This document shows, in pieces, positions 6,167-61,152 of a stretch of 64,000 nucleotides of DNA. The notes under the pieces were generated by a model, which was not told where the DNA came from, did not search any database, and saw only the letters and a program-made list of their open reading frames with translations. Made by a program: the position numbers and the translations under genes. Every line of letters starts with the position of its first letter. Position 1 is the first letter of the stretch. The stretch is from positions 412,501 to 476,500 of the forward strand of contig PUQB01000143.1 in NCBI GenBank assembly GCA_003024785.1. The letters are read 5' to 3'. This DNA comes from Selaginella tamariscina. Its lineage: Eukaryota; Streptophyta; Lycopodiopsida; Selaginellales; Selaginellaceae.

Positions 6167-6171
6167 TGTTT

Positions 6172-6655
6172 TGTCAAGCCACGATCCAGGAACTAGGAAG
6201 AGAACAGGATTCCAAGAACAGGAAGGCTTGACTCAGGAGCAGGACCAAGAGCAGGACAGGAACAGGAACAGGACGGATCCTAGAGCAAAACAGGATCAAG
6301 ATAGGATCCGGGGCAAGATAGGAAGGCGCAGGACAAGATCCAGGAACAAGACAGAAACATGACAGGATCCGGGAACAAGACAGGAGCAGGACAGGAAACA
6401 AGACAAGAACAAGACAAGACAAGATTGATCGTAGTAAAAACTGGTGTTGATAGTAACTGATTGTACAACGAGCTTTTATGCTCACAACTCCAAGAGCTAA
6501 TCTAGGCATGAGTGCTAAAAGTGGTTGCATGCATGCAGAGGTTAAGATGAGTCCACATGTCCCTTATCCTCTAGGCATATCCTGTGGATATCCTGTAGGA
6601 AGTCTGCAACCCATATCCTGTATCCGGAATCCTGTATCTGTATCGGGTCGTGACA
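6172..6655 (-). repeat. Chromovirus LTR (3')
   Basis: On the plus strand it begins TGTCAAGCCACGATCC and ends GGGTCGTGACA, so the element sense is TGTCACGACCC...TTGACA. It is rich in ACAGGAT-like short repeats. It holds TTGATAGTAACTG at 6447-6459, the complement of the presumed RNA start. A 10-base deletion relative to the other LTRs lies between this site and the TATA-like box. Confidence 0.9.
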
Positions 6656-6659
6656 CACC

Positions 6660-9600
6660 TCCTCCCTAAAGACGAGTTCCACGAGTCTTGGGACCTGGTT
6701 TAGCAGGATAATGCCGATGGAAGGCAGCAACTTGGAAGAAGCATGGAGTAAGTTGGATGCAGGTTCCCAAGTGCGATCAGTAGGCTAACCTTTCCAATCC
6801 ACCAAGTATTGGAGTTGGGGCGATGAAGAAGAATCAAGGATGGCTGCAACTTCGTACTCAGGTTCAGTGTCAATGACCACAGGAGGGGGAGGAGAAGAAA
6901 CACGACCGGGAAGAGAAGAAGGATGATACGGCTCCAACAAGGAGGTGTGAAACACAGGATGAAGTTTCACCGTGGATGGTAACTCGAGTCGGAAAGCTAC
7001 AGGATTTACCTCCGCCACGATCCTGTAAGGGCCCAATCGTTGAAAATCCAACTTAGAAGAAGGCCTGTTGGTGCGAATGTGTCGACGAAGAAGCCACACG
7101 AGATCACCAATCTTGTATGCAGGTGCCGGCTGACGGTGAGCATCAGCATGATGCTTGTATCGTTCCTGTGCCTGCTGAAGATGAACCTGGAGATCATCCT
7201 GTACCTGCCGAAGATGCTGAAGACGATCCTGTACTGCAGGAGCGGAAGAAGGAGAAGGGAGGAGCAAAGTCAAAACGTGGATGGTGGCCTGTAAGAGCAA
7301 AGAAAGGTGTCTGTCCTGTAGATGCGTGAACGGAGTTGTTGTAGGCAAACTCCGCCATTGGAAGAAGGTCCAACCAGTTGTCCTGCTGGTAACTGATGAA
7401 GCAACGAAGATACTGTTCAAGGTCTGAATTGTGCGTTCGGACTGCCCATCGGTTTGTGGGTGATATCCTGAAGAAAGATCCGCTTTAACCTGTAGACTCC
7501 GAAGAAGCTCTCGCCAAAACTTGGACATGAATTGTGGACCTCGATCGGAAACAATGCTCTCAGGAAGACCATGATGTCGGAACACCTCAGGATCACCAAC
7601 TCGGCAGTTGTCTGACCTGTAGCTGTCTTGTTGCAGGGTAGGAAATGAGCCTGCTTGGTGAAACGGTCAACCACCACAAGAACTGCATCAAATCCACGAG
7701 AAGGAGGAAGATCTGTGAGGAAATCCATAGAAATGGATCTCCAAGGAGCAGAAGGAACAGGAAGAGGACGAAGAAGACCAGAGGGTGCATGATGAGGCAT
7801 CTTCGACCTTACAAGTGTCACAACTCCGTACAAACCTCTCCACAAAACCTCGCAACCCAGGCCACCAATAGTTGCGAGTCACCAACTCCACTGTCTTGGC
7901 CACACCAAAATGTCCTGTAGCCGGGGTATCATGACAATCCTGTACCACACGAGTCCTGGAAATACCAACAGGAACGTACAGGAGACCTTCCCGGTACAGG
8001 AGTCCATGTATGGTGAACAGGTTGTAGTCTGGACGGGAACTGGAGGAAGAGGAACTTGCAACGTCAGGATGAATGTGTGAGAACACATTCTTTGCCAAGT
8101 CGTCTGTAGCCAACTGCGAACGGACGTCCTGTAGGAGTGTTGAATTTGCTGGAGCCTGATGAACCTGCAGTGCCGCAAGCCGGAATCGATCAGGACCCAA
8201 CAACACTTGCCTTTGACAGTCAAATGCAGGATCGCCCGGGCTTGGTGCAAGGTAAGAGCGCCTAGACAATGCGTCCGCCTTGCCATTCCGAAAACCGGGC
8301 CTGTAGACGATGACGAAGTCAAAACGTGATAGGAACTCGCCCACCTAGCCTGTCGCCGACTGAGAACTCGAGCCGTTTGAAAGTACTCCAGGTTCTTGTG
8401 ATCCGTAAGAACTTGTACAGGATGTGCAGCACCTTCCAGGAAATGCCGCCACTCCTCAAACGAATCCACAATGGCCTTGAGTTCCTTGTCATGAATCTCG
8501 TATTGATCTCCGCCGACAGGAACTTACGAGAGTGAAAAGCTACAGGATGAAGCAACTTGTCCTCTCCAACTTGCGATAGGACGGATCCTACTGCAAAATC
8601 CGAGGCATCTGCTTCAATGAAGAAAGGATGAGAAGGGTCAGGATGTGCTAAAATCGGAGCTGTCGTGAAACGTCCTTGAGTGTTGTGAACGCGTGTTCCG
8701 CCTTGTCGGACCAAGAGAAAACCCTGTGCGCTTGGTGAGTTCTGTGAGTGGAAGTACACGCTTGGAGAAGTCCTGTATGAACCGCCTGTAGAAGTTTGCA
8801 AAGCCAAGGAAACATTGTACATCTCGTACCGACTTGGGCCTCTCCCACTCCACGATGGTCTTCACCTTGTGCATGTCCATGGAAACGCCAGCAGGAGAGA
8901 CGATGTAGCCCAAGAACTCCACCGAATCCCTATCGAAAAAACACTTCTCCAACTTCGCGTACAGGCCATGCTCGCGAAGCCGCTCTAGAACTAGTCGTAC
9001 ATGCTTGTCATGTGCCGCCTGGTCCTTGGAGAAAATCAAGATGTCGTCGAGGTAGATCACCACAAACTGGTCCAAGAAGTCACGAAAGATGTCGTTCACC
9101 ATGTGTTGGAACACGGCTGGGGCATTGGTAAGGCCGAAAGGCATTACCGTGTACTCAAAATGTCCATACCTTGTACGAAAGGCAGTCTTCCACTCATCGC
9201 CGGGACGAATCCGTACAAGGTTGTAGGCCCCTCGTAAGTCGATCTTCGTGAACACCTTTGCTCCTCGCAGCCGATCGAGAAGTTCCGGGATCAATGGCAA
9301 CGGGTACCGATTCCGAATGGTGACTTGATTCAAACCCCTGTAGTCCACAACCAAACGTAAACTCCCATCCTTCTTCTTGACAAAGAAGATAGGCGCTCCT
9401 GCAGGGGACTTTGAGTGACGAATGAAGCCGGATGCCAAGTTGTCCTCGATGTACTGACGAAGAACCTCCAACTCTGTGGGTGACAATGCATAAATCGGTC
9501 CGAATGGTGGAGTCTTTCCTTCCGCAAGATCAATAGGACAGTCGTAGGACCTGTGAACAGGAAGAACTGCAGCCTTGTGCTTGTCAAAAACGTCCTTAAA

Positions 9601-10635
9601 GCGTGTACTTGGATGGTAGGGAAGAGGAGGAAGGAGAAGGAGGAGTAGGAGAAGGAGATTGAAAAACAGGAGAGTCGGATACAGGAAAGGTAGAAGAGGA
9701 CGTAGGAGTTACTTGAAAGGCAAAAAGGTGGAAAGGAGCAGGATCAGTGGCGAGTTCATGCATGGTAGTGGTAAGAACTCGGAGAGGAGAAGGAGGGAGC
9801 TGTGACTGAAAAAGAGGAAGGATCTTGGGGGTGGAACAGAAGCAGGTAACAGAAAGAGGCAGGATTGGAAAAAACCTGTGTGGTGTTGATGAGTGTACAG
9901 GATTGGAAGAATCCTGTACAGGAGTCCGTGGTTGCACAGGAGTGGGAAAAGCCTGCGAATGTGCTGACGAATCAACAGGAGGTGGATCCTGTTGAGGAGG
10001 AACCTTCGACACTGATACAGGATTGGAAGAACCCTGTACAGGACACCGCAAACTTACAGGAGTGGAGAGAGCCTGCGGATGTGCTGAGGAACTGACATGA
10101 GGTGAATCCTGTCGAGGAGGAGTCTTCAACACTGGTACAGGAACAGGCACGGTCAATCCTGTAGCTTGTACTGCCTCAGATACTAAGGATGTATCCTGCA
10201 CGCAGGAAGGTACAGGATTGATCCTAGCTGTCGGAGAGGAAAACGTGAGCGTCCTAGACCTCCAGTCGATCTGCGGATTTGCAACAACGAACCATGGCAT
10301 GCCCAAAATGATGGGAGTCGACCGAGTCTTGATCAAGTTGAAGGAAATTGAACAGTTGAATGTGCCATACCTGCAGGAGAGAGGTTCGGTAGCATGGGTA
10401 ACTGCGCCAGAAGCAATAGACGCCCATCGGCCACCTCTACAGGAACTGCACGCTTCAACTTCACCACCGAAATGCCATGTTGAGTTGCAAACGTGTCATC
10501 CATGAAGCATGCATTTGCACCAGTGTCTAACAAGGCAAACTCCATGAGCTCTCGATTATTAAGATGAATGTGTACAGGAAACTTAAGTGATGGGATGGTA
10601 TGAGCAGCACCAATGGAGCCTGCACCTACGTCCAA
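6660..10635 (-). pseudogene. pol: Chromovirus pol (PR-RT-RH-IN-chromodomain), frame-broken
   Basis: Protease motif LLDTGANACFMDD lies near 10,540. Reverse transcriptase is open over 9486-8638 with [24 protein letters not shown] and YLDDILIF. RNase H follows with [15 protein letters not shown] and [10 protein letters not shown]. Integrase has the zinc-binding H-H-C-C region ([13 protein letters not shown]...CDTCK) and the catalytic core start MDFLTDLPPSRGFDAVLVVVDRFT with VSDRGPQF. A chromodomain follows at about 6,850-6,690 (EYEVAAILDS, YLVDWKG). Several single-base frame breaks separate these segments, for example near 8,700, 7,800 and 7,590, so the copy is probably inactive unless they are assembly errors. 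A long Pro/Ser/Val-rich linker sits between protease and RT. Confidence 0.85.
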
Positions 10636-10646
10636 CTTCGCGGCTC

Positions 10647-11619
10647 CTAGACGAAGTGGACATTGGAGTTTTCCGACTGAACTTCAGCTTCAACTTCACG
10701 CGTCTTGAAGTTCCTGGCTTTAATAGGACAATCTGCCACCTTGTGTCCTGCTCCACCACAATACAAGCACAGGTTCTCACTGCGACGACGTTGCTTCTCA
10801 GCAGCGGAAAGAGAGCCACGCTTGGATTTCTCAACCTCCATAGGAACTACTCCAGAAGGTGGTGCAGGAACATGTACCACAGCTGCAGGATTGGTTTGCA
10901 GGAACTGCTGACGGGATCTTTCCTGACGACGCTCGAACAAACGGTTGTCGCAACGAAAGCTTGTTGCATGATCTCCGCTAATGTTTGGGCATCCGGTAAC
11001 GTAAGGAGAAGGTCCTTCACGTCATCCCTCAACCCAAAACGGAAGTGTTCGATCAATGCAGTCTCGTCCCATGGAATGTTCGTGCAAAGTTGCTGAAATT
11101 CGGATGCATAGACGGAAGCTGGTCGGGATCCTTGAGTGAGCTTCCGTAACTTCGTGCATGCAGAACGGTACTTATCAGGATCTCCAAAACAGGCTTCAAA
11201 GGCAGCCACGAAACCTTCAAAGTCTTCCATCAATGGGTCGTCACGCTCCAGCAAGGGGGCAACCCAAGCCCGTGGAGATCCACTTAGTAAGGATGCCAAA
11301 AGACCCACCTTTTGAGCATCAGTCGAGTAGCCGTGGTTGCATACGGATCAAGAGCCGGATCTGATTCAGGAAACCTTGGAAATCGGCACGATTGCCACTG
11401 AACTTCTCTGGCATGCTAACCTTCGGCTCCGAAGAAAAGTTGATGAAGAGGGAACCACCGATGCCTGGGAGAGAGCCTGCGCAGCAGCCTTGGAGGATGC
11501 ATCAGCAGCTGCATGTGCCGCATGGTGGAACCTTGCAGGTCGGTGACCACTTGGCGCAAAGTGGCCAGCTCATGAAGTAACATTTGGTGCTCGCGTTGAA
11601 AGCGCTCAAAATCAGCCAT
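10647..11619 (-). CDS. gag: Chromovirus Gag
   Basis: Start ATG at 11619, first residues MADFERFQREHQMLLHEL, a coiled-coil-like N-terminus. The capsid-type region contains LLASLLSGSPRAWVAPLL and FEACFGDPDKY. A CCHC knuckle LCLYCGGAGHKVADCP lies near the C-terminus. Stop at 10,647. There are minor frame breaks near 11,400 and 10,950. Gag assembles the intracellular particle and binds the RNA. It lies immediately downstream of the element's 5' LTR and the putative self-priming site. Confidence 0.8.
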
Positions 11620-11691
11620 GATCTAGGAAAGAAAAAAAGGAGGAAAAAAGGAATCAAGAAAAAGGTAGCTGGAAAACGGAGAACTATGAAG

Positions 11692-11704
11692 CAGTTACTA
11701 TCAA
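11692..11704 (-). other. Putative self-priming primer-binding site (inner element)
   Basis: The plus strand reads CAGTTACTATCAA two bases from the LTR edge at 11,707. Its complement is present inside the LTR (11987-11999). In RNA sense the primer site can pair over 13 bases with the presumed 5' end of the transcript. Confidence 0.65.
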
Positions 11705-11706
11705 AC

Positions 11707-12257
11707 TGTCAAGCCACGATCCAGGAACCAGGAAGAACAGGATTCCAAGGACAGGAAGGCTTGACTCAGGAACAGGACCGAGAGCAGGACAGGAACTAGG
11801 AATAGGAACAGGACGGATCTAGGAGCAAGACAGGATCAGGATAGGATCCGGGAGCAAGACAGGAAGGCAAGACAGGATCCAGGACAAGAGAAGACAGGAC
11901 AGGATCCAGGAGCAGGACAGGAAACAGGAGCGAGACAGGAACAGACAGAACAAGACAAGACGAGATTGATCGTAGTAAGACTGGTGTTGATAGTAACTGA
12001 TTGTACAACAATTAGGTCGGAGCTTTTATGCTCACAACTCCAAGAGCTAATCTAGGCATGAGTGCTAAAAGTGGTTGCATGCATGCAAAAGTGATTGCAT
12101 GCATGCAGAGGCTAAGATGAGTCCACATGTCCCTTATCCTCTAGGCATATCCTGTGGCATATCCTGTAGGAATATCCTGTGTGTCCGGAATCCTGGTAGG
12201 AAGTCCTGCAACCCTATCCTGTATCCGGAATACTGTATTCTGTATCGGGTCGTGACA
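11707..12257 (-). repeat. Chromovirus LTR (5' of inner element)
   Basis: Bounded by TGTCAAGCC and GTCGTGACA. It adjoins gag sequence of the outer element at 12,258 without a second target duplication. The TATA-like CATAAAAG (complement at about 12,023-12,030) lies about 31 bases from the 13-base complement at 11987-11999. Confidence 0.9.
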
Positions 12258-12895
12258 GTTGCATGATCTCGCTAATGTTTGAGCATCCGGTAATGTAAGG
12301 AGAAGGTCCTTCACGTCAGCCCTCAACCCAAACAGAAGTGTTCAATCAATGCAGTCTCGTCCCATGGAATGTTCGTGCAAAGTTGCTGAATTCGATGCAT
12401 AGACGGAAGCTGGTCGGGATCCTTGAGTGAGCTTCGCGTAATTTGCGGAACGTACTTATCAGGATCTCCAAAACAGGCTTCAAAGGCAGCTATGAAACCT
12501 TCAAAGTCTTCCATCAATGGGTCGTCACGCTCCAGCAGGGAGCAACCCAAGCCCGTGGAGATCCACTTAGTAAGGATGCCAAAAGACCCACCTTTGAGCA
12601 TCAGTCGAGGTGCGTGGTTGCATACGGATCAAGAGCCAGATCTGATTTAGGAAACTTGGAATCGGCATGATTGCACTGAACTTCTCTGGCATGCTAACTT
12701 GACTCCGAAAAAAGTTCGATGAAGAGGGAACCACCGATGCCTGGGAGAGAGCCTGTGCAGCAGCCTTGAGGATGCATCAGCAGCTGCATGTGCCGCATTG
12801 GTGGAACCTTGCAAATCGGTGACCACTTGGCGTAAAGTGGCCAGCTCATGAAGCAACATTTGGTGCTCGCGTTGAAAGTGCTCAAAATCAGCCAT
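12258..12895 (-). pseudogene. gag: Truncated Gag of the outer chromovirus
   Basis: Starts MADFEHFQREHQMLLHELATLR at 12895 and is collinear with the gag at 11619. It stops abruptly at codons for an ATGCAA stretch, where the inner LTR begins. It carries several indels (for example near 12,600 and 12,390) that break the frame, more than the inner copy. The zinc knuckle and all of pol are missing. Confidence 0.85.
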
Positions 12896-12974
12896 AATCT
12901 ATGAAAGAAAAAGGAGGAAACAAAGGAAAAGAATCAAGGAAAATAAGTAGCTGAAAAACGGAGAGCTATGAAAG

Positions 12975-12987
12975 TAGTTACTATCAA
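12975..12987 (-). other. Putative self-priming primer-binding site (outer element)
   Basis: The plus strand reads TAGTTACTATCAA, differing at its first base from the inner element. The LTR of this same element carries the matching change (TTGATAGTAACTA at 13302-13314), so the 13-base pairing is kept. Confidence 0.65.
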
Positions 12988-12989
12988 AT

Positions 12990-13529
12990 TGTCAAGCCAC
13001 CATCCAGGAACCAGGAAGAGAACAGGATTCCAAGAACAGGAAGGCTTGACTCAGGAGCAGGATTGAAAGCAGGACAAGAACAGGAACAGGACGGATCTTA
13101 GAGCAAGACAGGATCAAGATAGGATCGGGAGAGCAAGATAGGAAGCAAGACAGGAAGGAACAAGACAGAAACATGACAGGATCCGGAAAAGACAGGAGCA
13201 GGACAGGATCCAGGAGTAGAATAAGAACAGGAGCGAGCAGGAGTAGGACAGGAAACAAGCAAGAACAAGACAAGACAAGATTGATCGTAGTAAGACTGGT
13301 GTTGATAGTAACTAATTGTACAACAATTAGTCGGAGCTTTTATGCTCACAATTCCAAGCTAATCTAGGCATGAGTGCTAAAAGTGGTTGCATGCATGCAA
13401 AGTGATTGCATGCATGTAGAGGCTAAGATGAGTCAATGTCCCTTATCTAGACATATCCTGTGGCATATCTGTAGAAGTCCTCAACCCATATCCTGTATCC
13501 GGAATCCTATATTGTATCGGGTTGTGACA
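12990..13529 (-). repeat. Chromovirus LTR (5' of outer element)
   Basis: Begins TGTCAAGCCACCATCC and ends GGGTTGTGACA. It is followed directly by the TGTTT target duplication. It contains the variant TTGATAGTAACTA at 13302-13314. Confidence 0.9.
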
Positions 13530-13534
13530 TGTTT

Positions 13535-23508: not shown

Positions 23509-23513
23509 GCTCT

Positions 23514-24097
23514 TGTCACAACCCGATACAGGATACAGGATGCAGGATACAGGTTCCGGATACAGATACAGGATGCAGGATTTCGGATACAGGATACGGG
23601 TTACAGGATATGCCTGCAGGATATTCCTACAGGATATACCTATAGGATATTCCTATAGGATATGCCTATAGGATATGCTACAGGATATGCACAGGATATG
23701 CCTAGAGGATAAGGGACACTATTCTTAGCTCATGACTAGATTAGACTCATGACTAGATTAGCTTGGAGTTGTGAGCATAAAAGCTCCGACCTAATTGTTG
23801 TACAATCAGTTACTATCAACACCAGTCATTCTACGATTATTCTTGTTCCTTGTTCTTGTCTTGTTCTTGTCTTACTCTTTGCCTCCTGCTCCTGTCTTGC
23901 TCCGGATCCTGTCTGTTCCTGTCTTGTTCCTGATCCGTCCTGCGCTTCCTGTCTTCTCCGGATCCTATCCTGTCCTGTCTGCTCCTGGATCCGTCCTGTT
24001 CCTATTCCTAGTTCCTGTCTGCTCTCTCCTGTTCCTGAGTCAAGCCTTCCTGTTCCGGAATCCTGCTCCTTCCTGGTTCCTGGATCGTGGCTTGACA
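23514..24097 (+). repeat. Chromovirus 5' LTR
   Basis: Begins TGTCACAACCCGATACAGG, ends GTGGCTTGACA. The U3 part consists largely of ACAGGATAT-type short repeats. The part after 23,820 is rich in TCCTGTC and TTCTTGTC repeats. Confidence 0.95.
23777..23819 (+). promoter_or_regulatory. LTR core promoter and presumed RNA start
   Basis: A TATA-like ATAAAAG lies at 23777-23783. CAGTTACTATCAA lies at 23807-23819, about 30 bases further on, the usual TATA-to-start distance. Its reverse complement occurs just after the LTR (24100-24112). The start site is inferred, not measured. Confidence 0.6.
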
Positions 24098-24099
24098 GT

Positions 24100-24112
24100 T
24101 TGATAGTAACTG
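24100..24112 (+). other. Putative self-priming primer-binding site
   Basis: TTGATAGTAACTG, two bases inside the LTR end at 24,097, is exactly complementary to CAGTTACTATCAA in the LTR. No tRNA-type TGG start follows the LTR. Tf1 and sushi-group elements prime reverse transcription from their own RNA 5' end with this layout. Confidence 0.7.
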
Positions 24113-24192
24113 CTTTCATAGCTCTTCGTTTCCAGCTACTTTTTTTTCCTTGATTCTTTTCCTTCGTTTTCTCCTTTCTTTCTTTCATAATC

Positions 24193-25169
24193 ATGGCTGA
24201 TTTTGAGCACTTTCAACGCGAGCACCAAATGTTGCTTCATGAGCTGGCCACTTTGCGCCAAGTGGTCACCGATCTGCAAGGCTCCACCCATGCGGCACAT
24301 GCAGCTGCTGATGCATCCTCCAAGGCTGCTGCGCAGGCTCTCTCTCAGGCATCGGTGGTTCCTTCTTCATCGAACTTTTCTCCGGAGCCGAAGATCAGCA
24401 TGCCAGAGAAGTTCAGTGGCAACCGTGCCGATTTCCAAGGTTTCCTGAATCAGATCCGGCTCTTGATCCGCATGCAACCACGCCGCTACTCGACGGATGC
24501 ACAAAAGGTTGGCCTTTTGGCATCCTTACTAAGTGGATCTCCACGAGCTTGGGTTGCTCCCTTGCTGGAGCGTGACGACCCATTGATGGAAGACTTTGAA
24601 GGTTTCGTGGCTGCCTTTGAAGCCTGTTTTGGAGATCCTGATAAGTACCGTTCTGCATGCACAAGTTACGGAAGCTCACACAAGGATCCAGACCAGCTTC
24701 CGTTTATGCATCCGAATTTCAGCAATTGTGCACGAACATTCCATGGGACGAGACTGCATTGATCGAACACTTCCGTTTTGGGCTGAGGGATGATGTGAAG
24801 GACCTTCTCCTTACATTACCGGATGCTCAAACGTTAGCGGAGATCATGCAACAGGCCGTTCGCTGCGACAACCGTTTGTTCGAGCGCCGTCAGGAAAAAT
24901 TCCGTCAGCAGTTCCTGCCAACCAATCCTGTAGCCGTAGCACATGTTCCTACGACACCTTCTGGAGCAGTTCCTATGGAGGTTAACAAATCCAAGCGTGG
25001 CCCACTTTCAACTGCTGAGAAGCAACGTCGTCGGGGTGAGAACCTATGCTTGTATTGTGGTGCAGCAGGACACAAGGTGGCGGAATGTCCTAATAAAGCC
25101 AGAAAGTTCAAGACGCGTGAAGCCGAAGCTGAAGTTCAGTCGGAAAACTTCAATGTCCACTTCGTCTAG
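24193..25169 (+). CDS. gag: Chromovirus Gag
   Basis: ATG at 24193 (MADFEHFQREHQ). The capsid-type region has GLLASLLSGSPRAWVAPLLE. The frame changes near 24,657-24,680 by an indel. The C-terminal half carries the CCHC knuckle LCLYCGAAGHKVAECP (about 25,046-25,093). Stop at 25,169. About 320 codons when the indel is bridged. Confidence 0.85.
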
Positions 25170-25189: not shown

Positions 25190-28100
25190 GGTGCAGGCTC
25201 CATTGGTGCTGCTCATACCATTCCATCACTCAAGTTTCCTGTACACATTCGCCTCAATAACGAGAGCTCAAGGAGTTTGCCCTGTTAGACACTGGTGCAA
25301 ATGCATGTTTCATGGATGACACTTTTGCAGCTCAGCATGGCATTCCGGTGGTGAAGTTGAAGCGTGCAGTTCCTGTAGAGGTGGCCGATGGTCGTTTGAT
25401 TGCTTCTGGCGCAGTTACCCACGCTACCACACTCTCTCTTGCAGTCATGGTGCATTCAACTGTTCGATTTCCTTCAACTTGATCAAGACTCGGTCGACTC
25501 CCATCATTTTTGGCATGCCATGGTTCGTTGTTGCAAATCCGCAGATCGACTGGAGGTCTAGGACGCTCACGTTTTCCTCTCCAGCAGCCAGGATCAATCC
25601 TGTACCTTCCTGCGTGCAGGATACATCCTTGGTGTCTGAGGCAGTACAAGCTACAGGATTGACCGTGCCTGTTCCTGTACCAGTGTTGAAGACTCTTCCT
25701 CGACAGGATTCACCTCATGTCAGTTCCTCAGCACATCCGCAGGTTCTCTCCACTCCTGTAAGTTTGCGGATTCCTGTACAGGGTTCTTCCAATCCTGTAT
25801 CAGTGTCGAAGGTTCCTCCTCAACAGGATCCACCTCCTGTTGGTTCGTCAGCACACTCACAGGCTTCCTCACTCCTGTGCAACCACGGACTTCTGTACAG
25901 GATTCTTCCAATCCTGTACACTCGTCAACATCCACACAGGTTTCTCCCAATCCTGCCTCCTTTTGTTACTCTGCTTCTGTTCCACCCCCAAGATCCTTCC
26001 TCTTTTTCAGTCACAGCTCCCTCCTTCTCCTCTCCGAGTTCTTACCACTACCATGCATGAACTTACCACTGATCCTGCTCCTTTCCACCTTTTTGCCTTT
26101 CAAGTAACTCCTACGTCCTCTTCTACCTTTCCTGTGTCTGACTCTCCTGTTTTTCAATCTCCTTCGCCTACTCCTTTTCCTTCTCCTCCTTCTTCTCTAC
26201 CATCCAAGTACCACGACTTTAAGGACGTTTTTGACAAGCACAAGGCTACAGTTCTTCCTGTTCACAGGTCCTACGACTGTCCTATTGATCTTGCAGAAGG
26301 AAAGACTCCACCGTTCGGACCGATTTACGCATTGTCACCCACAGAGTTGGAGGTTCTTCGCCAGTACATCGAGGACAACTTGGCATCCGGCTTCATTCGT
26401 CACTCAAAGTCCCCTGCAGGAGCGCCTATCTTCTTTGTCAAGAAGAAGGATGGGAGCTTACGTTTGGTTGTGGACTACAGGGGTTTGAATCAAGTACCAT
26501 TCGGAATCGGTACCCGTTGCCATTGATCCCGGAACTTCTCGATCGGCTGCGAGGAGCAAAGGTGTTCACGAAGATCGACTTACGAGGGGCCTACAACCTT
26601 GTACGGATTCGTCCAGGCGATGAGTGGAAGACTGCCTTTCGTACAAGGTATGGACACTTCGAGTACACGGTGATGCCTTTCGGCCTTACCAATGCCCCAG
26701 CCGTGTTCCAACACATGGTGAACGACATCTTTCGTGACTTCTTGGACCAGTTTGTGGTGATCTACCTCGACGACATTTTGATTTTCTCCAAGGACCAGGC
26801 GGCACATGACAAGCATGTACGATTGGTTCTACAGCGGCTTCGCGAGCATGGCCTGTATGCGAAGTTGGAGAAGTGTTTTTTCGATAGGGATTCTGTGGAG
26901 TTCTTGGGCTACATCGTCTCTCCTGCTGGCGTTTCCATGGACATGCACAAGGTGAAGACCATCGTGGAGTGGGAGAGGCCCAAGTCTGTACGAGATGTAC
27001 AATGTTTCCTTGGCTTTGCAAACTTCTACAGGCGGTTCATACAGGACTTCTCCAAGCGTGTACTTCCACTCACGGAACTCACCAAGCGCACAGAGGTTTT
27101 CTCTTGGTCCGACAAGGCGGAACATGCATTCACAACACTCAAGGACACCTTCACGACAGCTCCGATTTTAGCACATCCTGATCCTTCTCGTCCTTTCTTC
27201 GTTGAAGCAGATGCCTCGGATTTTGCAGTAGGATCCGTCCTATCCAAGTTGGAGAGACAAGTTGCTTCATCCTGTAGCTTTTCACTCTCGTAAGTTCCTG
27301 TCGGCGGAGATCAATTACGAGATTCATGACAAGGAACTCAAGGCCATTGTGGATTCGTTTGAGGAGTGGCGGCATTTCCTGGAAGGTGCTGCACATCCTG
27401 TACAAGTTCTTACGGATCACAAGAACCTGGAGTACTTTCAAACGGCTCGAGTTCTCAGTCGGCGACAGGCTAGGTGGGCGGTTCCTATCACGTTTTGACT
27501 TCGTCATCGTCTACAGGCCCGGTTTTCGGAATGGCAAGGCGGACGCATTGTCTAGGCGCTCTTACCTTGCACCGCCCGGGATCCTGCATTTGACTGTCAA
27601 AGGCAAGTGTTGTTGGGTCCTGATCGATTCCGGCTTGCGGCACTGCAGGTTCATCAGGCTCCAGCAATTCAACACTCCTACAGGACGTCCGTTCGCAGTT
27701 GGCTACAGACGACTTGGCAAAGAATGTGTTCTCACACATTCATCCTGACGTTGCAAGTTCCTCTTCCTCCAGTTCCCGTCCAGACTACAACCTGTTCACC
27801 ATACAGGATGGACTCCTGTACCGGGAAGGTCTCCTGTACGTTCCTGTTGGTGTTTGCAGGACTCGTGTGGTACAGGATTGTCATGATACCCCGGCTACAG
27901 GACATTTTGGTGTGGCCAAGACAGTTGAGTTGGTGACTCGCAACTATTGGTGGCCTGGGTTGCGAGGTTTTGTGGAAAGGTTTGTACGGAGTTGTGACAC
28001 CTGCAACAGGTCGAAGATGCCTCGTCATGCACCTCTGGTCTTCTTCGTCCTCTTCCTGTTCCTTCTGCTCCTTGGAGATCCATTTCTATGGATTTCCTCA

Positions 28101-29163
28101 CAGATCTTCCTCCTTCTCGTGGATTCGATGCAGTTCTTGTGGTGGTTGACCGTTTCACCAAGCAGGCTCATTTCCTACCCTGCAACAAGACAGCTACAGG
28201 TCAGACAACTGCCGAGTTGGTGATCCGCGAAGTGTTCCGACATCATGGTCTTCCTGAGAGCATTGTTTCCGATCGAGGTCCACAATTCATGTCCAAGTTT
28301 TGGCGAGAGCTTCTTCGGAGTCTACAGGTTAAAGCGGATCTTTCTTCAGGATATCACCCAAACTGATGGGCAGTCAGAACGCACAATTCAGACCTTAGAA
28401 TATCTTCGTTGCTTCATCAGTTACCAACAGGATAATTGGTTGGACCTTCTTCCATGGCGGAGTTTGCCTACAACAACTCCATTCACGCATCTACAGGCCA
28501 GACACCTTTCTTTGCTCTTACAGGCCACCATCCACGTTTTGACTTTGCTCCTCCCTTCTCCTTCTTCCGCTCCTGCAGTACAGGATCGTCTCCAGCATCT
28601 TCGTCAGGTACAGGATGATCTCCAGGTTCATCTTCAGCAGGCACAGGAACGGTACAAGCATCATGCTGATGCTCACCGTCAGCCGGCACCTGCATACAAG
28701 ATTGGTGATCTCGTGTGGCTTCTTCGTCGACACATTCGCACCAACAGGCCTTCTTCTAAGTTGGATTTTCAACGATTGGGCCCTTACAGGATCGTGGCGG
28801 AGGTAAATCCTGTAGCTTTCCGACTCGAGTTACCATCCACGGTGAAACTTCATCCTGTGTTTCACACCTCCTTGTTGGAGCCGTATCATCCTTCTTCTCT
28901 TCCTGGTCGTGCTTCTTCTCCTCCCCCTCCTGTGGTCATTGCTGGTGAACCTGAGTACGAAGTTGCAGCCATCCTTGATTCTCGTCTTCATCGCCCCAAC
29001 TTCAATACTTGGTGGATTGGAAAGGTTATTTGCCTACCGATCGCACTTGGGAACCTGCATCCAACTTACTCCATGCTTCTTCCAAAGTTGCTGCCTTCCA
29101 TCGGCATTATCCTGCTAAACCAGGTCCTAAGACTCGTGGAACTCGTCCTTAGGGAGGAGGTGC
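25190..29163 (+). pseudogene. pol: Chromovirus pol, frame-broken
   Basis: Protease LLDTGANACFMDD lies near 25,282-25,320. A Pro/Ser/Val-rich linker spans about 25,590-26,200. RT follows: [11 protein letters not shown] near 26,470, YLDDILIF near 26,763. A single base is missing near 26,496 relative to the other copy (caagtacc against caagtcacc), which breaks the frame inside RT. RNase H ([12 protein letters not shown]) lies near 27,210. The integrase zinc region is at about 27,880-28,010, its core opens at 28,088 (MDFLTDLPPS). The chromodomain (EPEYEVAAILDS, then a WKG-like core in another frame) lies at 28,950-29,110. Several frame changes make this copy defective as assembled. Confidence 0.85.
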
Positions 29164-29688
29164 TGTCACAACCCGATACAGGATACAGGATGCAGGATAC
29201 AGGATTCCGGATACAGGATACAGGATGCAGGATTTCGGATACAGGATACGGGTTACAGGATATGCCTGCAGGATATTCCTATAGGATATTCCTATAGGAT
29301 ATGCCTATAGGATATGCTACAGGATATGCCTAGAGGATAAGGGACACTATTCTTAGCTCATGACTAGATTAGACTCATGACTAGATTAGCTTGGAGTTGT
29401 GAGCATAAAAGCTCCGACCTAATTGTTGTACAATCAGTTACTATCAACACCAGTCATTCTACGATTATTCTTGTTCCTTGTTCTTGTTCTTACTCTTTGC
29501 CTCCTGCTCCTGTCTTGCTCTGGATCCTGTCTGTTCCTGTCTTGTTCCTGGATCCTCCTCGCCTTCCTGTCTCTCCTGGATCCGTCCTGTTCCTATTCCT
29601 GTTCCTGTCCTGCTCCGGTCCTGTCTCTAGTCAAGCCTTCTGTTCCTGGAATCCTACTCATTCCTGTTTCCTGGATTGTGGCTTGACA
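29164..29688 (+). repeat. Chromovirus 3' LTR
   Basis: Preceded by the purine tract TAGGGAGGAGGTGC. It is shorter than the 5' LTR through small deletions in the short-repeat tracts; unique parts look nearly identical, which suggests a fairly recent insertion. Confidence 0.95.
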
Positions 29689-29693
29689 GCTCT

Positions 29694-31669: not shown

Positions 31670-34064
31670 TCAGAGTTCATGTCCATGATCTCCTTTCTGA
31701 CTTAAAGTCCTGTTACAGTACCAGGAAAAAAGACCTGCAGAAGGGGAAACGAGTCCATGCAAAGGCAGTGGAAACTGGGAACGAGTCGAACGTGTGTTGC
31801 AACAACACTCATCAACATGTACGCCAGGTGCGGCAGCACGGTAGACGCTCGGACAGTATTTGACAGTATCCATGAGCCGGACGTGGTGTCCTGGACTGCT
31901 ATGATCCTGGGATATGCGGACAGTGCACAAGGTCTTACTGCCCTGGACTTGTTTTCGAGGATGAAGGACGAGGGAAGATGTGCGCCCAATTGCATGACAT
32001 ATGTTGCTGTCCTCAAGGCCTGCACGTCACTGGCAGCAGATGGAGATGAAAGTGGAAAGAAAAGGTGTCTGGAACGAGGTAGAGAGATACATTTGGAGAT
32101 TGGTTGCCATATGAATCAGTTCGTGCAGAGCACGCTCATAGACATGTATGCCAAGTGCGGAAGCATGGCAGACGCTCGGACATTGTTTAACAGTATCCAA
32201 GATCCGGACGTGGTGTCCTGGACTGCTATGATCCTGGGATATGCGGACAGTGCACAAGGTCTTGCTGCCCTGGACTTGTTTTCGAGGATGAAGGACGAGA
32301 GAAGATGTCGGCTCGATTCCACGACTTATCTTGCTGCTCTCAAGGCATGCACGTCACTGGCAGCAGATGGAGATGAAAGTGGAAAGAAAAGGTGCCTGGA
32401 AAGAGGTAGAGAGATACATTTAGAGATTGGTTGCCATATGAATCAGTTCGTGCAGAACATGCTCATAGACATGTATGCCAAGTGTGGCAGCATGGTAGAC
32501 GCTAGGAGTGTGTTTGACAGTATCCAGGAGCCGGACGTGGTGTCCTGGAATGCTCTGATTCTGAGCTATGCGGACGATGGGCAGGGTCTTGTTGCCCTGG
32601 ACTGCTTCTCTAGAATGAAAGAGGGTAGATGTGCGCCCAATTACGTGACATATGTTGCTGCTCTCAAGGCCTGCACGTCACTGGCAGCAGATGGAAATGA
32701 AAGTGGAAAGAAAAGGTGTCTGGAACGAGGTAGAGAGATACATCTGGAGATTGGTTGTCATGAATCAGTTCGTGCAGAGCACGCTCATAGACATGTATGC
32801 CAAGTGTGGAAGCATGGTAGACGCTAGGAGTGTGTTTGACAGTATCCAGGAGCGGGACGTGGTGTCCTGGAATGCTCTAATCCTGGGCTATGCAGACGAT
32901 GGGCAGGGTCTTGCTGCCTTGGACCTCTTCTCTAGAATGAAAGAGGAGTGCAAATGTGTGCCAATTGTGCAACATATGTTGCTGCTCTCAAGGCTTGTAG
33001 TTTGAATGGGGCTTTGGCCACTGGACGGAGGTTTCATTCAAGATAAAGGAATTTAATGCTCATGTGGTAACATCTTTGGTAACTTCTATGCAAAATGTGG
33101 AGCATGGAAGGGCTCGTGAAGTATTTAATTTACACCCACGAGTAAGGGATTATCAACATGGAATGCACTCTTAGCAGGTTATGGTAGGTTTGGGAACACT
33201 AATTCTATAATTTAATCTTTTTGAGGCAATGCAAGATCAGGATTTCCGACCAAATGGTATCACATTTTATGCATGCTTTGAATGTTGTAGTCATGCAGGT
33301 TTAATAAAAAAGGGCATGGGAGTATCTTGAAGTAATGCCTATGCGGTATGGACTTACCCCTACTGTGATGCATTACAATTGTATGGTTTGATCTTATGGG
33401 TCGTGCAAACAAGTGGACGAGGCTATTGCTTTGTTACAAAAAATGCCTTATAATCCCAATGTAGTAACATGGATGACACTTTTGAGTGCTTGTCGTAAAT
33501 GGGAAAATATTGAAATAGGAAAGATGGCTTTTAAGTCTTAATAAATTTGGATCAAAAGAAGACATCTGCTTATATACTTATGGCTGAGATATATAGTAGT
33601 AAGGTATGTGGAGGAGCAAGAAAGGGTATTGAAAACAAAAATGAAGTTTAGTGCTTGGAAATTGTGTGGCAAGCTTATGTTATGGATGGACTAGGGAAAT
33701 AGTTAGATTTGTGGTTGGGGAGAATGATCATGCATATGTTGAAGATAAATTAAAAGAATTTCTCAAAAGCATGCAAGAACACGAATGTGTTGTTAAATCA
33801 TATAGCATGAATCATTTTATAATAGATAATGAAAATGATAAGTCATTATGTGGGCACAATGAAAGACGTTGCTGTAGTTTATGGTATTTTAAATACACCT
33901 AATGGAGAGGTTGTTAGAGTTATTAAAAATATAAATGTGTAACAATTGTCATTGGATAATCAAAATGATTTCCAAACTTTCTAGGAGAGTTATAATTGGT
34001 AAGAGATGAGAATCAGTTTCATATTATGGAAAATGGTAATTGTTCATGTAGAGATTATTGGTAA
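31648..34064 (+). pseudogene. PPR protein of the PLS-DYW class, decayed
   Basis: DYW-class PPR proteins perform C-to-U RNA editing in plastids and mitochondria. ATG at 31648; the first helix pair reads DLQKGKRVHAKAVETGNESN. A frame change near 31,790 leads into the main frame (31757-32827). That frame has three modules of 109 residues, each with (S)TLIDMYAKCGSM, DVVSW(T/N)A(M/L)IL and TSLAADG(D/N)ESGKKRCLE. A further frame change near 32,760 leads to a fourth module. From 33,000 the gene is strongly degraded but still shows E-domain-like text. The DYW domain is recognisable: GHNE (the HxE zinc motif) near 33,855, NTPNGEVVRVIKN, then CNNCH near 33,940, and a terminal CSCRDYW followed by TAA at 34064. 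Confidence 0.8.
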
Positions 34065-45236: not shown

Positions 45237-46835
45237 GTGCGGCGGGATTAATCTCGCCACCCCTTCAATGCCTCCTGAAAGAGTGGGCGGGATTAATCTC
45301 GCCACCTTTCTGGAGGCCTTGAACGGGAGTGCGGAATTAATCTTGCCACCCTTCTCGGTCTCAGAGAGAACTGGGCAGGATTTATTTCTCACACCCCTTC
45401 AGTGACTCCAGAAAGGAGGCGGGATTAATCTCGCCCACCATGTAAGGGATGGTTAAATGAATTTCCCCACCCTTCCCAATTCTCTCCATTGGTATGTTGA
45501 AACCTTCTACGTCTCAGACAGAAACGTTTGGGATTGGTCCGACTCACCAATGGAGAAAAAAGGAAGGGTGGCGGATTCATTCCTCCAACAGGCATTGAAG
45601 ACTCGGCGGGATTAATCCCGCCGCCCAGGGCCTTCACTCGGTCCCTATGCGGCGGGATTAATCCCGCCGGACGCCAATTCCTGCGGAATCGGGGGGCGAT
45701 TAATCCCGCCGCCTAGGCACTTCAGGCAGGCCAATGGCGGCGGGATAAATCCCGCCCGATTCCGGCAGGGATGCGTACGCGGGATTAATCCCGCCTCCCA
45801 GGCCCTTCACTCGGGCCTTAGTCGGCGGGATTAATCCCGCCGAACGCCAATGCCCTGTGCGAAATCTTGCGGGATTAATCCCGCCGCCTAGGCCCTTCAG
45901 GCAGGCCAATGGCGGCGGGATAAATCCCGCCCGATTCCGCGCAGGGCATGCGTACGCGGCGGGATTAATCCCGCCCACCATGTAAGGGATGGTGAAATTA
46001 ATCCCACCACCCTTCTCAGTTCCCTCCATTGGTATTTTGTAAACCTTCTCCGTCTCAGACAGAGTTAGTCGGGATTGATTCAACATACCAATGGAGGAAA
46101 AAAGGGTGGCGGGATTAATCCCGCCACCGGGTAATGAAGGTTCGGAGAGACTAATCCCGCCGCCCTCTCGTAAATCATGCGCTCACACATATATATTGGC
46201 TGCGGCATTTTGAACAGGGATGGGTGGGGGCGGGATTAATCCCGCCGCTTATATCCTGCGGAAGTGCCTGAGCGGCGGGATTAATCCCGCCGCCCTCCGC
46301 GAAGGGCATGAGCGTGGGGCCGGATTAATCCCGCCGTTCATGTCCTGCGTGAATTCCCTGGGCGGCGGGATTAATCCCGCCGCCTTACGCGCAGGACATG
46401 TCATGCAGGCTCTTCCCCGTGCAGGATCTTTCATGCAGGCTCTTCGGTTAGCCTCATGAGCGGCGGGATTAATCCCGCCGCCCATCCCCTGTAAATGCCC
46501 TGCGCGGAATCCGGCGGGATTAATCCCGCCCATTAGGGCCTTCACACAGGCCATTGCCGGCGAGATAAATCCCGCCGCATTCCGCGCAGGGCATGGGTGA
46601 GCGGCGGGATTAATCCCGCCGCGAGGCCCCTCACGCAGGCCATGGGCGGCGGGATTAATCCCGCCGCTCTTCGGTTTGTCCTAGAGCGGCGGGATTAATC
46701 CCGCCGCCCATAGCCTGCGTGAAGGGCCTCGGCGGCGGGATTAATCCCGCCCATGGCCCCAACCATATAGCGGCGGGATTAATCCCGCCGCCGAGGCCAT
46801 AAACCTATAGCGGCGGGATTAATCCCCGCTCGAGG
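45237..46835. repeat. Palindromic satellite array, about 30 sites
   Basis: About 30 copies of GGCGGGATTAATCCCGCC or close variants, spaced about 35-50 bases. Many extend to GCGGCGG..CCGCCGC. Spacers repeat too, in both orientations (CATGCCCTGCGCGGAAT and its complement; AGGCC(C/T)TTCA(C/G)GCAGGCC). The region is GC-rich in AT-rich surroundings. The left part (45,237-45,430) is diverged (ATCTCGCC), the right part nearly perfect. Open frames here read GGINPA or GLIPP on both strands because the unit is palindromic; they are not genes. Confidence 0.95.
45437..46128. repeat. Duplicated ~150-bp block inside the array
   Basis: A block starting CACCATGTAAGGGATGGT occurs at about 45,437-45,575 and 45,976-46,128. 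Each copy is itself an imperfect hairpin, with CCACCCTT...CTCCATTGGTAT facing ATACCAATGGAG...AAGGGTGG (the first copy has lost part of the right arm). Confidence 0.8.
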
Positions 46836-55764: not shown

Positions 55765-56225
55765 AGGGAGATGCTTCGTTGGATGCTGCCTAGAGAGACT
55801 GATTTCCACCTTGGTGGCTGATGTGGTAGGTAGCTGATGTGGCAGGTGACTGGCGTGGCAAGTTGCTGATGTGGCCGTGGATGACGTGGCAAAGGTAGAT
55901 GAATAGGCTAGGCTAGTGGGCAGGGCAGTAGCAAATAAGGTAGGTTTCCCCTTATACGCAAAGGAATTCTCTGATGTACACTACTACACTACTGAATAAG
56001 TTACACAGAATTCCCATAAACTTCAACTCTTATACTACCTCAAAAATTACTATTTGATTGATAACCCTACACTATCCATGAGCTTCTTACCATCATAAAC
56101 TTGTCCATTTTGAACCATTCTTCCAACAAATTCTAACATGCATCAAACCAGTCGATGCCAATAGGACCTTGTAACTTGGATGAAATTCTCAAAATTACCT
56201 GATTAAGTGGATTACAAAGTGACAT

Positions 56226-56428
56226 TGAAAGAGCAGATTATATTAAATGAAAATCTGATATCTTAGTTTACAAAAAACCTGCTTATATACAGGAGTCTCC
56301 TGCCACGTGGCACACATGCGACACGTGGCGCTGACACATGGGGGCCAGATCACACCCATGGTCACTACGCATGTGCGTATATACACATGCGTATATACGG
56401 TACGTTATCTAATATACAGTATCTTACA
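56226..56428 (-). repeat. Gypsy 3' LTR
   Basis: Plus strand begins TGAAAGAGCAGATTATATTA, ends CAGTATCTTACA. It contains the duplicated motif CATGCGTATATAC. Confidence 0.95.
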
Positions 56429-59400
56429 CTATCCTCCCCTCTGCGGCTGTGTAGATGGTGATGGATCTGATGGTCCTGGATCCGTGTGAGCTGGGCCATC
56501 TAAGGTATGACCAAATGTACTCAACGAGTCTCGAACGACAAACCGTTTCATTCGAACCACGTGAACTATCTCAACCTCATGAGATCCCACCAACTTTACT
56601 TGATATACCTGAGGACCAACCTTTCGGAGTACTCGGTAGGGACCAAGCCACTTGTGTAATAAACCAGTTGCAAGCCCAGGTGCAGTCAGCTTGGGAAAAC
56701 GTACCAGGACTAAGTCACCGTCAGCAAAATCTGGTGGAATTTGATGTCGTGTATTGTAAGAAGATTGCTGCCGCATTTGAGCTCGACCAAGATGTTCAGC
56801 AGACTCTGCACGCAGAAGGGCAAAACAGCATCCAAATGTCGGAGCCCACATCTTTGCATCCTCGGCACGTGGCAGATTCGATGATAACCCCAATTCACTA
56901 GGCAACTTAGGATCATATCCATACAATGCCTTGAATGGAGAGATACCAATCGAACTCTGAATGCCTGTTACATAAGCAAATCTCAAACATCGCAAATACC
57001 AATCCCAGTCCGTGTGATTGAAGTTCACATACTTCGAGATCATACCCTTGAAGGTCCGATTCAATCGCTCCACCAAACCATCAGTTTGTGGATGATACGG
57101 AGAGGCAAATGAATGTTTTACCCTAACCTCTCACACAACACTCGGAATACCTCTGCAATGAAAGCGGGGCCATTGTCTGATAACATCCGCTCTGGACAAG
57201 AATGCTGCAAAACCACATTATCAAACAGAAACAAAGCTGTTGACATGGCAGTTGCATCCGGAAGAGCACCAACCTCTACCCATCGAGTTAAATAATCGGA
57301 TACAACAATGATGTACTGGTTACCTTGAGAAGAACGTGGAAAAGGTCCCATTAAATCCACTGCAATTAACTCAAAAGGGCGAGAGACATTGATGGATTCC
57401 AACACTCCCATGGCCGAGTCGTAGAGGAATTCCGAGTTTGACAAGTGGGACAACTTTGAATATACCTGATCACATCACCACGCATGCTTGGCCAATAAAA
57501 TGATCGGCGCAGCTTCTCCAACACTCGTTGATGACCAAGATGACCTCCAACAATAGGTGAATCATGATATGCTCGAAGAAGGTGTGGAACATATGTAGAG
57601 GGTACAACCAACGCCATCTGTCCTTGGATTTGTCCAATAAATACAATAACCATCCTGAAGTCGAAACTGAGCATGATATTGTCGAAACCGAGGTTCGGAA
57701 GACGGAATTGCAAACGCATCGCGTAATTGCTTCGTCCATGGTTCATGTTTTTGAGCATCCTGCCACTGTTCCAAGGATGGTAAGTCGGCATCGAATACCT
57801 GAGGGGCTTGTATCAAACCAAAATGCTGCAGCTACTGCATGAGCAGGCAAAGTGGAATCGGAGAGGGTGCTCGAGAAAGTGCATCCGCATCCACCATTGT
57901 TCGCCCAGGCCTGTGCACCACCTTAAAGTTATATACCTGGAGACGTAATGCCCCATCTGGCTACGCGACCCACTAAATTCTTCCGTTTTAATAAGGAAGT
58001 GACAGCAGCATGATCACACTCCAAAAGTGTTTCACTCCCATGTAAGTAGGCATGAAGTCGTTCAAAACCCCAAACAGCAGCAAGGCATTCTTTTTCAGTA
58101 GTGGAATAATTCCGCTCAGCCGGCGTGAGTACTCGACTAATGTAAGCCACCGGGTGTCGAATTGAAGAATCCACAGCATCAGTTTGCATCAATACACCAC
58201 CAATACCAACATCTGAGGCATCTACTCGTAAAATGAACGGACGAGTAAAATCTGGGTATTGAAGCAATGGTGGAGTTGTCAGGAACTCTTTTAACTGGTC
58301 AAATGCCTGCTGACACCTGCGAGTCCACCTGAAAGATACCTGTGGACGAACTAACTCCCGAAGAGGGGCAGTTCGATCAGTGAGATGATCGATGAATCGA
58401 CCCAAGTACTGCACCGTGCCCAAGAAACGCTGGACTTCCTGTACTGTACGGGGACGAGGAACTCTCGAACAGCTCGCAACTTCATTGGATCCACCTGTAA
58501 ACCCTCTCGAGATATACGGTAACCCAAGTAAGTGGTGTCGGTCGAACCAAACACACACTTTTCAAGTTTCAACTTCAGGCCAACTTCTCGAAATCGATCA
58601 AGAACGCGCCGTACATCACGAATGTGATCCTCCCAAGAACCAGACCCATGAATGAGCACATCGTCGATAAAATCGGCAGTGATATCAGGCATATCGGAAA
58701 GAAGCTCATCCATCATGCGTTGAAAGGTGGCAGGAGCTGAAGTCAATCCAAAAGGCATGACCAAAAACTCGTAAAGACCAAATGGTGTCCGGAAGGCCGT
58801 TTTTGGAATATCCTCCTCAGCCATAGGAACCTGCCAATATCCTGATGCCAAATCCAACTTAGTAAACCATCGACTCTGACCCAAACGATCTAATAGATCG
58901 GCAGAGTTCGGAAGTGGATAGACATCTTTGATGGTAACATCGTTAAGAGGTCGGTAATCCACACAAAATCGGAGAGATCCATCAGGCTTGGGAACCAAAT
59001 GAGGTTCACATGCCCATGGACTCCGTGACGGACGACACACTCGTTTACCAATCATATCAGTAACAGCTGTTCGCATGGCTGATAACTCCTTTGGTGACCT
59101 GCGTCGAACCGGGACTTTGAAAGGCTTTGCATTGCCGGTGGGTATACAGTGTCGAGTCTTCACACGTGCACCTTGGGACAGATCAAATTTGAACAAACTT
59201 GCATACTGTTTCTTAAGTTGTTCGATGCAGTGTGCTCGACACTCAGGTGACGGATCCGGCATTTGAACCTGTTGAGATGAACACCACCCAAGACCGGAAT
59301 CAAAGGAGCTGTATGCGTGATACAAACAGCAACAAGCTTCTCTGGACGTAAAGGAACAGACTGCAAAGACACAGACTCCAAGCGTAATACAGGAGGAGAG

Positions 59401-59654
59401 AGTGAAAAATCACATGTACCTTTCGACTGCTTTAACCAATCACATCCCAGAATGATGTCAAAGACCTGGGAAGGGACAACCCTAAGAGACCCAGAGGGAA
59501 ACTTACAGTTGGCACCCATAACCAGCGTAGTCGAAGTGGTGTACTGTGATACTGCACGAGACTGCCCATTACCATATAAAATGTGCAAGACCTTATCTGC
59601 TCGTCTTAAGGGTAATGAGCACCGATGCGCTAGAGAAGTAGTTATGGAAGACAT
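56429..59654 (-). pseudogene. pol: Gypsy pol (PR-RT-RH-IN)
   Basis: Protease C-terminal part DIILGCDWL near 59,450. RT open over 59325-58351: LVPKPDGSLRFCVDYRPLND, MPFGLTSAPATFQRMM and FIDDVLIHG, the last replacing the usual YxDD tyrosine by phenylalanine. RNase H over 58558-57929 (FILRVDASDVGIGGVL, STTEKECLAAVWGFE). Integrase zinc region near 57,600 (HLGHQRVLEKLRR...CPTCQTRN), core over 57453-57118 (IAVDLMGPFPRSSQGN, SDNGPAF) and C-terminal part 57076-56429 (WLGPYRVLRKVGPQVYQVKL). Single-base frame changes near 58,360-58,550, 57,830, 57,370 and 57,100 interrupt it. Confidence 0.85.
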
Positions 59655-60898: not shown

Positions 60899-60949
60899 GG
60901 AAACAAGAAAAGAAAAGCGGAAGAAAGGAATACCCAACTTCTCCACCAA

Positions 60950-61152
60950 TGAAAGAGCAGATATATTAAATGAAAATCTGATATTAGTTTACAAAAAACC
61001 CTGCTTATATACAGGAGGTCTCCTGCCACGTGGCACACATGCGACACGTGGCGCTGACACATGGGGGCCAGATCACCACCCATGTGTCACTACGCATGTG
61101 CGTATATACACATGCGTATATACGGTACGTTACTAATATACAGTATCTTACA
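60950..61152 (-). repeat. Gypsy 5' LTR
   Basis: Near-identical to the copy at 56226-56428, differing by small indels. Confidence 0.95.
61003..61050 (-). promoter_or_regulatory. LTR promoter: TATA box and two G-boxes
   Basis: In element sense two CACGTG cores (plus-strand 61045-61050 and 61027-61032, the second within the palindrome GCCACGTGGC) are followed by GTATATAAGCAG. G-boxes bind bZIP and bHLH factors in plants. The same layout is present in the 3' LTR. Function is inferred. Confidence 0.6.

Follow-up and report, generated by a model that had tools for sequence, protein, structure and literature searches.

How does an LTR retrotransposon start reverse transcription when no tRNA-type primer site follows its LTR? 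The question is raised by one element, here called copy A, in a stretch of 64,000 nucleotides of Selaginella tamariscina DNA (the window). A sequence-only reading of the window had proposed that this element is primed by the 5′ end of its own RNA, folded onto a complementary site just past the LTR. After surveying the family to which the element belongs, we consider it highly probable that copy A, a degenerate element, belongs to an abundant, self-priming Ty3/Gypsy family of the Tf1/sushi-Tcn1 type. Its features, all on the plus strand, are as follows.

23509-23513 (left) and 29689-29693 (right), plus strand: target site duplication GCTCT, read from the sequence
23514-24097, plus strand: 5′ LTR of copy A, TGTCA...TGACA, from LTR alignment and self-comparison
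23777-23783, plus strand: TATA-like ATAAAAG, each base agreeing in 41 or 42 of 42 rows
23808-23819, plus strand: putative 12-nt self-primer AGTTACTATCAA, the likely RNA 5′ end as judged from family copies; C at 23807 is base 13 of the match
23821-23837, plus strand: LTR arm just 3′ of the primer, predicted to pair with 24084-24099 (U5-IR-like stem)
24084-24099, plus strand: predicted LTR-end arm of the U5-IR-like stem, including the GT that precedes the primer site
24100-24111, plus strand: core of the primer binding site, TTGATAGTAACT, exact in 34 of 37 copies
24112, plus strand: base 13 of the match, a hot spot one base wide, with G in most junctions and copies, C as the commonest substitute, and A, T or loss of the base in others
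24193-25169, plus strand: gag region in two overlapping broken frames (Pfam DUF4939, Retrotrans_gag)
25840-27293, plus strand: reverse transcriptase and RNase H region, broken frames (Pfam RVT_1 and RT_RNaseH_2 in 26517-27293)
27699-29297, plus strand: integrase region with a Tf2-1-like SH3, broken frames reaching into the 3′ LTR (Pfam Integrase_H2C2, SH3_Tf2-1)
29151-29160, plus strand: polypurine tract AGGGAGGAGG, read from the sequence
29164-29688, plus strand: 3′ LTR of copy A, with the 13-mer kept at 29435-29447, from alignment and sequence

The coding order in copy A, with gag, reverse transcriptase (RT) and RNase H followed by integrase, is that of Ty3/Gypsy elements. In copy A and in a second copy of the family in the window (copy B, below), Pfam reported SH3_Tf2-1 and no chromodomain in a region where the frames are broken, and a chromodomain-like stretch was seen by eye only. 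The U3 part of the 5′ LTR is rich in CAGGAT-type repeats and the U5 part in TCCTG-type repeats, which are roughly complementary; tests of this gave mixed results, as complementary 6-mers between U3 and U5 showed no excess (27, against a shuffle mean of 32.3) while the duplex energy of -177 was below that of all 50 shuffles (minimum -152).

Both 13-mers lay where the sequence-only reading had placed them: TTGATAGTAACTG (24100-24112) is the exact reverse complement of CAGTTACTATCAA (23807-23819), and the latter begins, as claimed, 30 bases past the first base of ATAAAAG. The primer site begins 2 bases 3′ of the LTR end, the position at which first-strand synthesis must begin. Shuffling the 13-mer 20,000 times gave a longest LTR complement of 11 (4 times) and never one of 12 or 13. 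Across the window, a 13-mer with a complement no more than 590 bases upstream was found at 322 of 63,387 positions. Bare 13-mer complements are thus not rare in this repeat-rich sequence, and the weight of the argument is carried by the location of the site at the LTR end and by the evidence from the family.

The proposal also held that no tRNA-type site follows the LTR. This stands with respect to TGG, the mark of such a site, of which there is none within 34 bases after the 5′ LTR of copy A; it is in that form, rather than for every tRNA-derived primer, that the claim can be kept. As controls we used Ty3 elements of three other kinds, five copies in all.

C154, 28553-33372: control kind 1, TGG-type site
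Window, 56223-61152; C23, 37661-42598; C154, 39672-44511: control kind 2
C1284, 15590-20461: control kind 3, TGG-type site

These TGG-type elements, with primer sites TGGTATCGGAGC, TTGGTGGAGAAG and TTGGTGGAGGTG, share both superfamily and genome with the present family. A self-complement of at least 7 bases in the LTR was absent from all five (in the last of the kind 2 copies only part of the LTRs was covered), whereas the three family copies tested in the same way had complements of 12 or 13. The control copy in the window (56223-61152, minus strand) is a Ty3/Gypsy-like element with short LTRs of about 206 bases and the primer site TTGGTGGAGAAG, and has similar copies in C23 and C154. Alternatively, an internal tRNA fragment may prime copy A, as half-tRNAs do in some Ty1/copia lineages, in which case the complement in the LTR would be incidental. 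Half-tRNA primers need no TGG and are reported for plant Ty1/copia elements in the relevant passages of PMC6317226, but they would predict neither a complement of 12-13 bases at the expected RNA start nor the matched change at the RNA start described below, and we regard priming of this kind as extremely improbable. The 359,874 bases of the genome scanned with ARAGORN yielded no tRNA to set beside the primer site.

In order to learn whether the two sites stay complementary in other copies, we searched the genome (300.7 Mb in 1391 contigs) with a query that included the primer site and kept the best 40 of 4,163 candidates. Five loci (L014, L021, L030, L031, L034) and a second reading of L033 were dropped from the count, which comprised 37 copies, namely 35 loci with a leader anchor and the two primer sites of copy B in the window (B1 and B2). 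Among these 37, 36 carried an exact AGTTACTATCAA at the presumed RNA start and 34 an exact TTGATAGTAACT at the primer site. When we instead required exact matches to the LTR end and leader and left the primer site free, 676 junctions were found in the genome, and none with a reversed control. Bases were read in the first 100 of the 676 listed, in contig order.

Ten of these 100 junctions carried TTGATTGTAACT, in which one base of the primer site is changed. The RNA start could be read in eight of the ten and showed the matching change, AGTTACAATCAA, in seven; L071 combined the changed primer site with an unchanged RNA start, and in L066 and L069 the RNA start could not be read. Removing copies whose compared stretch repeated that of another left five distinct matched copies. 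We then assembled a set of copies enriched on purpose for unusual primer sites, in which 81 raw junctions gave 72 distinct ones and, once 7 without a readable RNA start were left out, 65 distinct copies. In this set, the joint states of primer-site base 6 and RNA base 7 were A/T in 56 copies, T/A in five, T/T in one and other combinations in three. On a weakly resolved LTR tree (9 of 62 inner branches starred), four of the matched copies (L063, L064, L065 and L068) fell in one starred clade with L067 apart, and the tree called for the matched base to change twice at the RNA start and three times at the primer site. A tree forcing all five matched copies together was not rejected (p-AU 0.297). 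The change matched on both sides of the pairing thus represents one or two events, at most two, and the two independent pairs that agree on it are too few to reach significance.

Other variants were not matched in this manner. GTAATT stood in the primer site of six copies that could be read (L017, L073, L075, L076, L077 and L100), of which only L077 was matched at that base (position 2), the other five keeping a G at the RNA start that gives a G-U pair, and in L078/L079 the RNA start and the primer site were mismatched at three bases. The family members therefore mostly keep both sites complementary, including the matched double change, and in this respect support the proposal that the element is primed by its own RNA 5′ end, yet the 12-mers were not exactly matched in 17 of the 65 distinct copies of this variant-enriched set. 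On our reading, the mismatch in 13 of the 17 involves C-to-T or G-to-A, as would be expected of decay after insertion.

We also considered the predicted structure of the leader. In a fold of 23807-24192, the pairs of the primer duplex had probabilities of 0.63-1.0; in a longer fold (23807-24300) the duplex was absent from the minimum-energy structure and had an ensemble probability of 0.5-0.79. The U5-IR-like stem between 23821-23837 and 24084-24099 had a predicted energy of -16.4 kcal/mol, a value as low being reached in 9 of 2000 shuffles, and every pair of a 7-bp part of it, counting G-U, was kept in 59 copies, both arms having been located in 64 of the 65. No counterpart to the third duplex of the Tf1 “pretzel” was found in the leader, the best candidate being equalled in 37 of 300 shuffles. 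Such a strong leader stem could serve several roles, and the complement may have been kept for one of these, such as a hairpin used in translation or packaging, while something else primes. We consider this very improbable, since one edge of the match lies exactly two bases from the LTR end, the point from which reverse transcription has to set out if the LTR end is to be made, and since a hairpin offers no evident reason for a hot spot confined to one base at the opposite edge of the match. In addition, related families are known or proposed self-primers, as described in the portions of PMC7175516 that treat them.

From its spacing of about 30 bases from the TATA-like box, the RNA most likely starts at A23808, which would give a 12-nt primer and place the start one base inside the 13-mer of the sequence-only reading. 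We prefer A23808 because base 13 is the hot spot and because the sequence here, TCAGTT, resembles an initiator. Alternatively, the primer may be 13 nt long and the RNA begin at C23807. This start is favored by the T:A pairs that B1 of the window, L080 and a diverged copy in L054 have at base 13, whereas the unmatched base-13 pairs of L024, L073, L081, L082 and L100 speak against it, and A23808 remains the preferred start.

Base 13 of the match (24112) was unlike its neighbors. It was not G in 27 of the first 100 listed junctions, being C in 15, A in four and T in one, while seven junctions were shortened and lacked the base; in five of these seven, AACTC stood directly before TTTC. In the 89 full-length junctions among the first 100 of the 676 listed, base 12 varied in none, base 13 in 20 and base 14 in two. 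Among the 37 copies, which were not chosen for base 13, G was absent in 11, three of which (L036-L038) were alike in the stretch. Only transversions are a telling measure here, because C/T changes are common in the leader, with up to 15 in one column. On the tree of the enriched set, in which 52 copies have the base, base 13 required 14 transversions, and none of 314 LTR columns required more than 6; the figure of 14 overstates the rate because the set was enriched for unusual primer sites. In the subset assembled without regard to base 13, in which 28 copies have the base, it required 4, a narrow lead over the 318 LTR columns, none of which exceeded 3.

Two readings of this hot spot were weighed, both of which are compatible with self-priming. 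The simpler is that base 13, taking no part in the pairing, can mutate freely, with neither a cap nor a non-templated addition involved, and we give this reading slightly less than an even chance. It fits the mixed pairs at base 13, which are T:A in B1, L080 and the diverged copy in L054, T:G in L024 and L073, and C:A in L081, L082 and L100; other leader columns also vary much by C/T change, and the weakness of the tree inflates the number of changes at all sites. It fits less well with the near-fixed neighbors on either side (2 of 89 at base 14 and 0 of 89 at base 12, against 20 of 89), with the narrow lead in transversions in the unselected subset, or with the fact that 15 of the 20 substitutes are C, as G to C is normally a rare change.

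The other reading, which we advance tentatively and with somewhat more doubt than belief, is that, as the 12-nt primer is being copied into the plus strand, reverse transcriptase appends a C opposite the cap or past it. The added C would either replace base 13 (G to C) or slip onto the next C, so that the G is lost, and genomic copies would thereby record the capped 5′ end of the RNA. MMLV-derived enzymes are described, in the sections of PMC3877366 concerned with this activity, as adding non-templated bases with a preference for cytosine, and an analogous process may operate in this Selaginella family. The open-licence literature that we searched, little of which comes near the question, contained no earlier report of a scar at base 13. 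If this reading is true, a one-base hot spot would map an RNA start from DNA alone and would demonstrate that the next generation receives a copy of the self-primer. Genome copies could then serve to locate RNA starts and to probe other such families for self-priming, and they would reveal how each cycle renews the primer site.

The proposed cycle can be outlined as follows. Transcription would start about 30 bases after the TATA-like box, at A23808, and the first 12 bases of the RNA are predicted to fold onto the primer site two bases past the LTR, with a second predicted stem joining the LTR end to the LTR arm that follows the primer. By analogy with Tf1, RNase H would cut after base 12 (23819/23820), and the freed 3′ end would be extended into U5. 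The plus strand, in copying the primer, would write the RNA start into the new primer site. Such copying would keep the two sites matched, and may leave the base-13 scar where it ends at the capped end.

The second member of the family in the window is copy B.

6172-13529, minus strand: copy B, same family, with three LTRs (13529-12989, 12257-11707 and 6655-6172) and two primer sites, from self-comparison and sequence

Its order is LTR, truncated gag, LTR, internal part and LTR (6167-13534, minus strand), with a single site duplication, AAACA, around the whole; this three-LTR insertion is probably a tandem product of recombination or reverse transcription. The primer site of B2 has an exact 13-bp complement, and that of B1 matches with T:A at base 13. 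RT and integrase parts were recognized in copy B by Pfam. The family is very abundant, with the 676 exact junctions reported above and many of the listed RT places lying in long open frames, which suggests recent spread. Elsewhere in the window, a frame resembling a PPR gene, which contains near-identical repeats of 322-327 bases in tandem, lies beside copy A (31757-32827), and direct and inverted repeats of about 65-89% identity are densely clustered at 45283-46835.

In its RT, copy B shares 68% and 64% identity with two Cryptococcus proteins (P0028 and P0072) and 45-55% with four from Tanacetum. In an RT tree of 44 rows, the window RTs of the family fell within a group of 39 rows together with fungal and vertebrate rows (99/96), and this group excluded the four Tanacetum plant rows and the other window RT. 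The rows nearest to the window RTs are proteins without names, and we would assign the family to the Tf1/sushi group (Tcn1 clade) from a tree whose rows include none named Tcn1, Tf1 or sushi. P0028 and P0072 are named only “hypothetical” and are not sisters of the window RT; that they represent Tcn1 is a guess. A further RT search, in which 138 of 18,889 first-look candidates were scored, listed only matches 92-100% identical to the query, and these therefore provide no independent family of the clade for comparison.

Tf1 is the founding self-primed element. In Schizosaccharomyces pombe it primes with the first 11 bases of its RNA, according to the account in PMC7175516, and, like the family described here, it has an RNA 5′ end complementary to a primer site near the LTR, as the pertinent passages of PMC7175516 and PMC10085805 describe. 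The Tf1 primer is cleaved between bases 11 and 12, whereas that of the present family would have 12 bases. In Tf1, further duplexes form between the LTR and the flanks of the primer site, and of the two extra duplexes of the pretzel one was not found here. Those parts of PMC10085805 that deal with the pretzel report it for Tf1, Tf2 and several relatives, and we do not take all three duplexes to be required of the self-primed group. Tcn1 of Cryptococcus neoformans is named as a proposed self-primer in the corresponding section of PMC7175516 and resembles the present family in this regard, although the kingdom of its host differs.

The sequence-only reading had asked whether self-priming is reported in plants, and it had in fact been predicted. 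The majority of plant Tcn1-clade chromoviruses, found in mosses and club-mosses, are stated in the relevant text of Neumann 2019 (PMC6317226) to lack tRNA-type sites and to be predicted self-primers like Tf1/sushi, and the same text extends this prediction to the TAR lineage of Ty1/copia. Like those chromoviruses, the present family has a non-seed plant host, the Ty3/Gypsy coding order and no TGG of a tRNA-type site in the 34 bases after the LTR. SM-Tcn1 of Selaginella moellendorffii has LTRs of 440 bp, and the passages on it in Novikova 2010 (PMC2864245) give evidence for neither tRNA priming nor self-priming; in contrast, the family in S. tamariscina has a 5′ LTR of 584 bp and a clear self-primer of 12-13 bases. 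Self-priming is thus already known for relatives, and this family probably adds another such element. What it contributes is sequence evidence, gathered copy by copy and including a double change that matches on both sides, for self-priming in a lycophyte element, where the account of SM-Tcn1 from 2010, in the passages cited, had found none.
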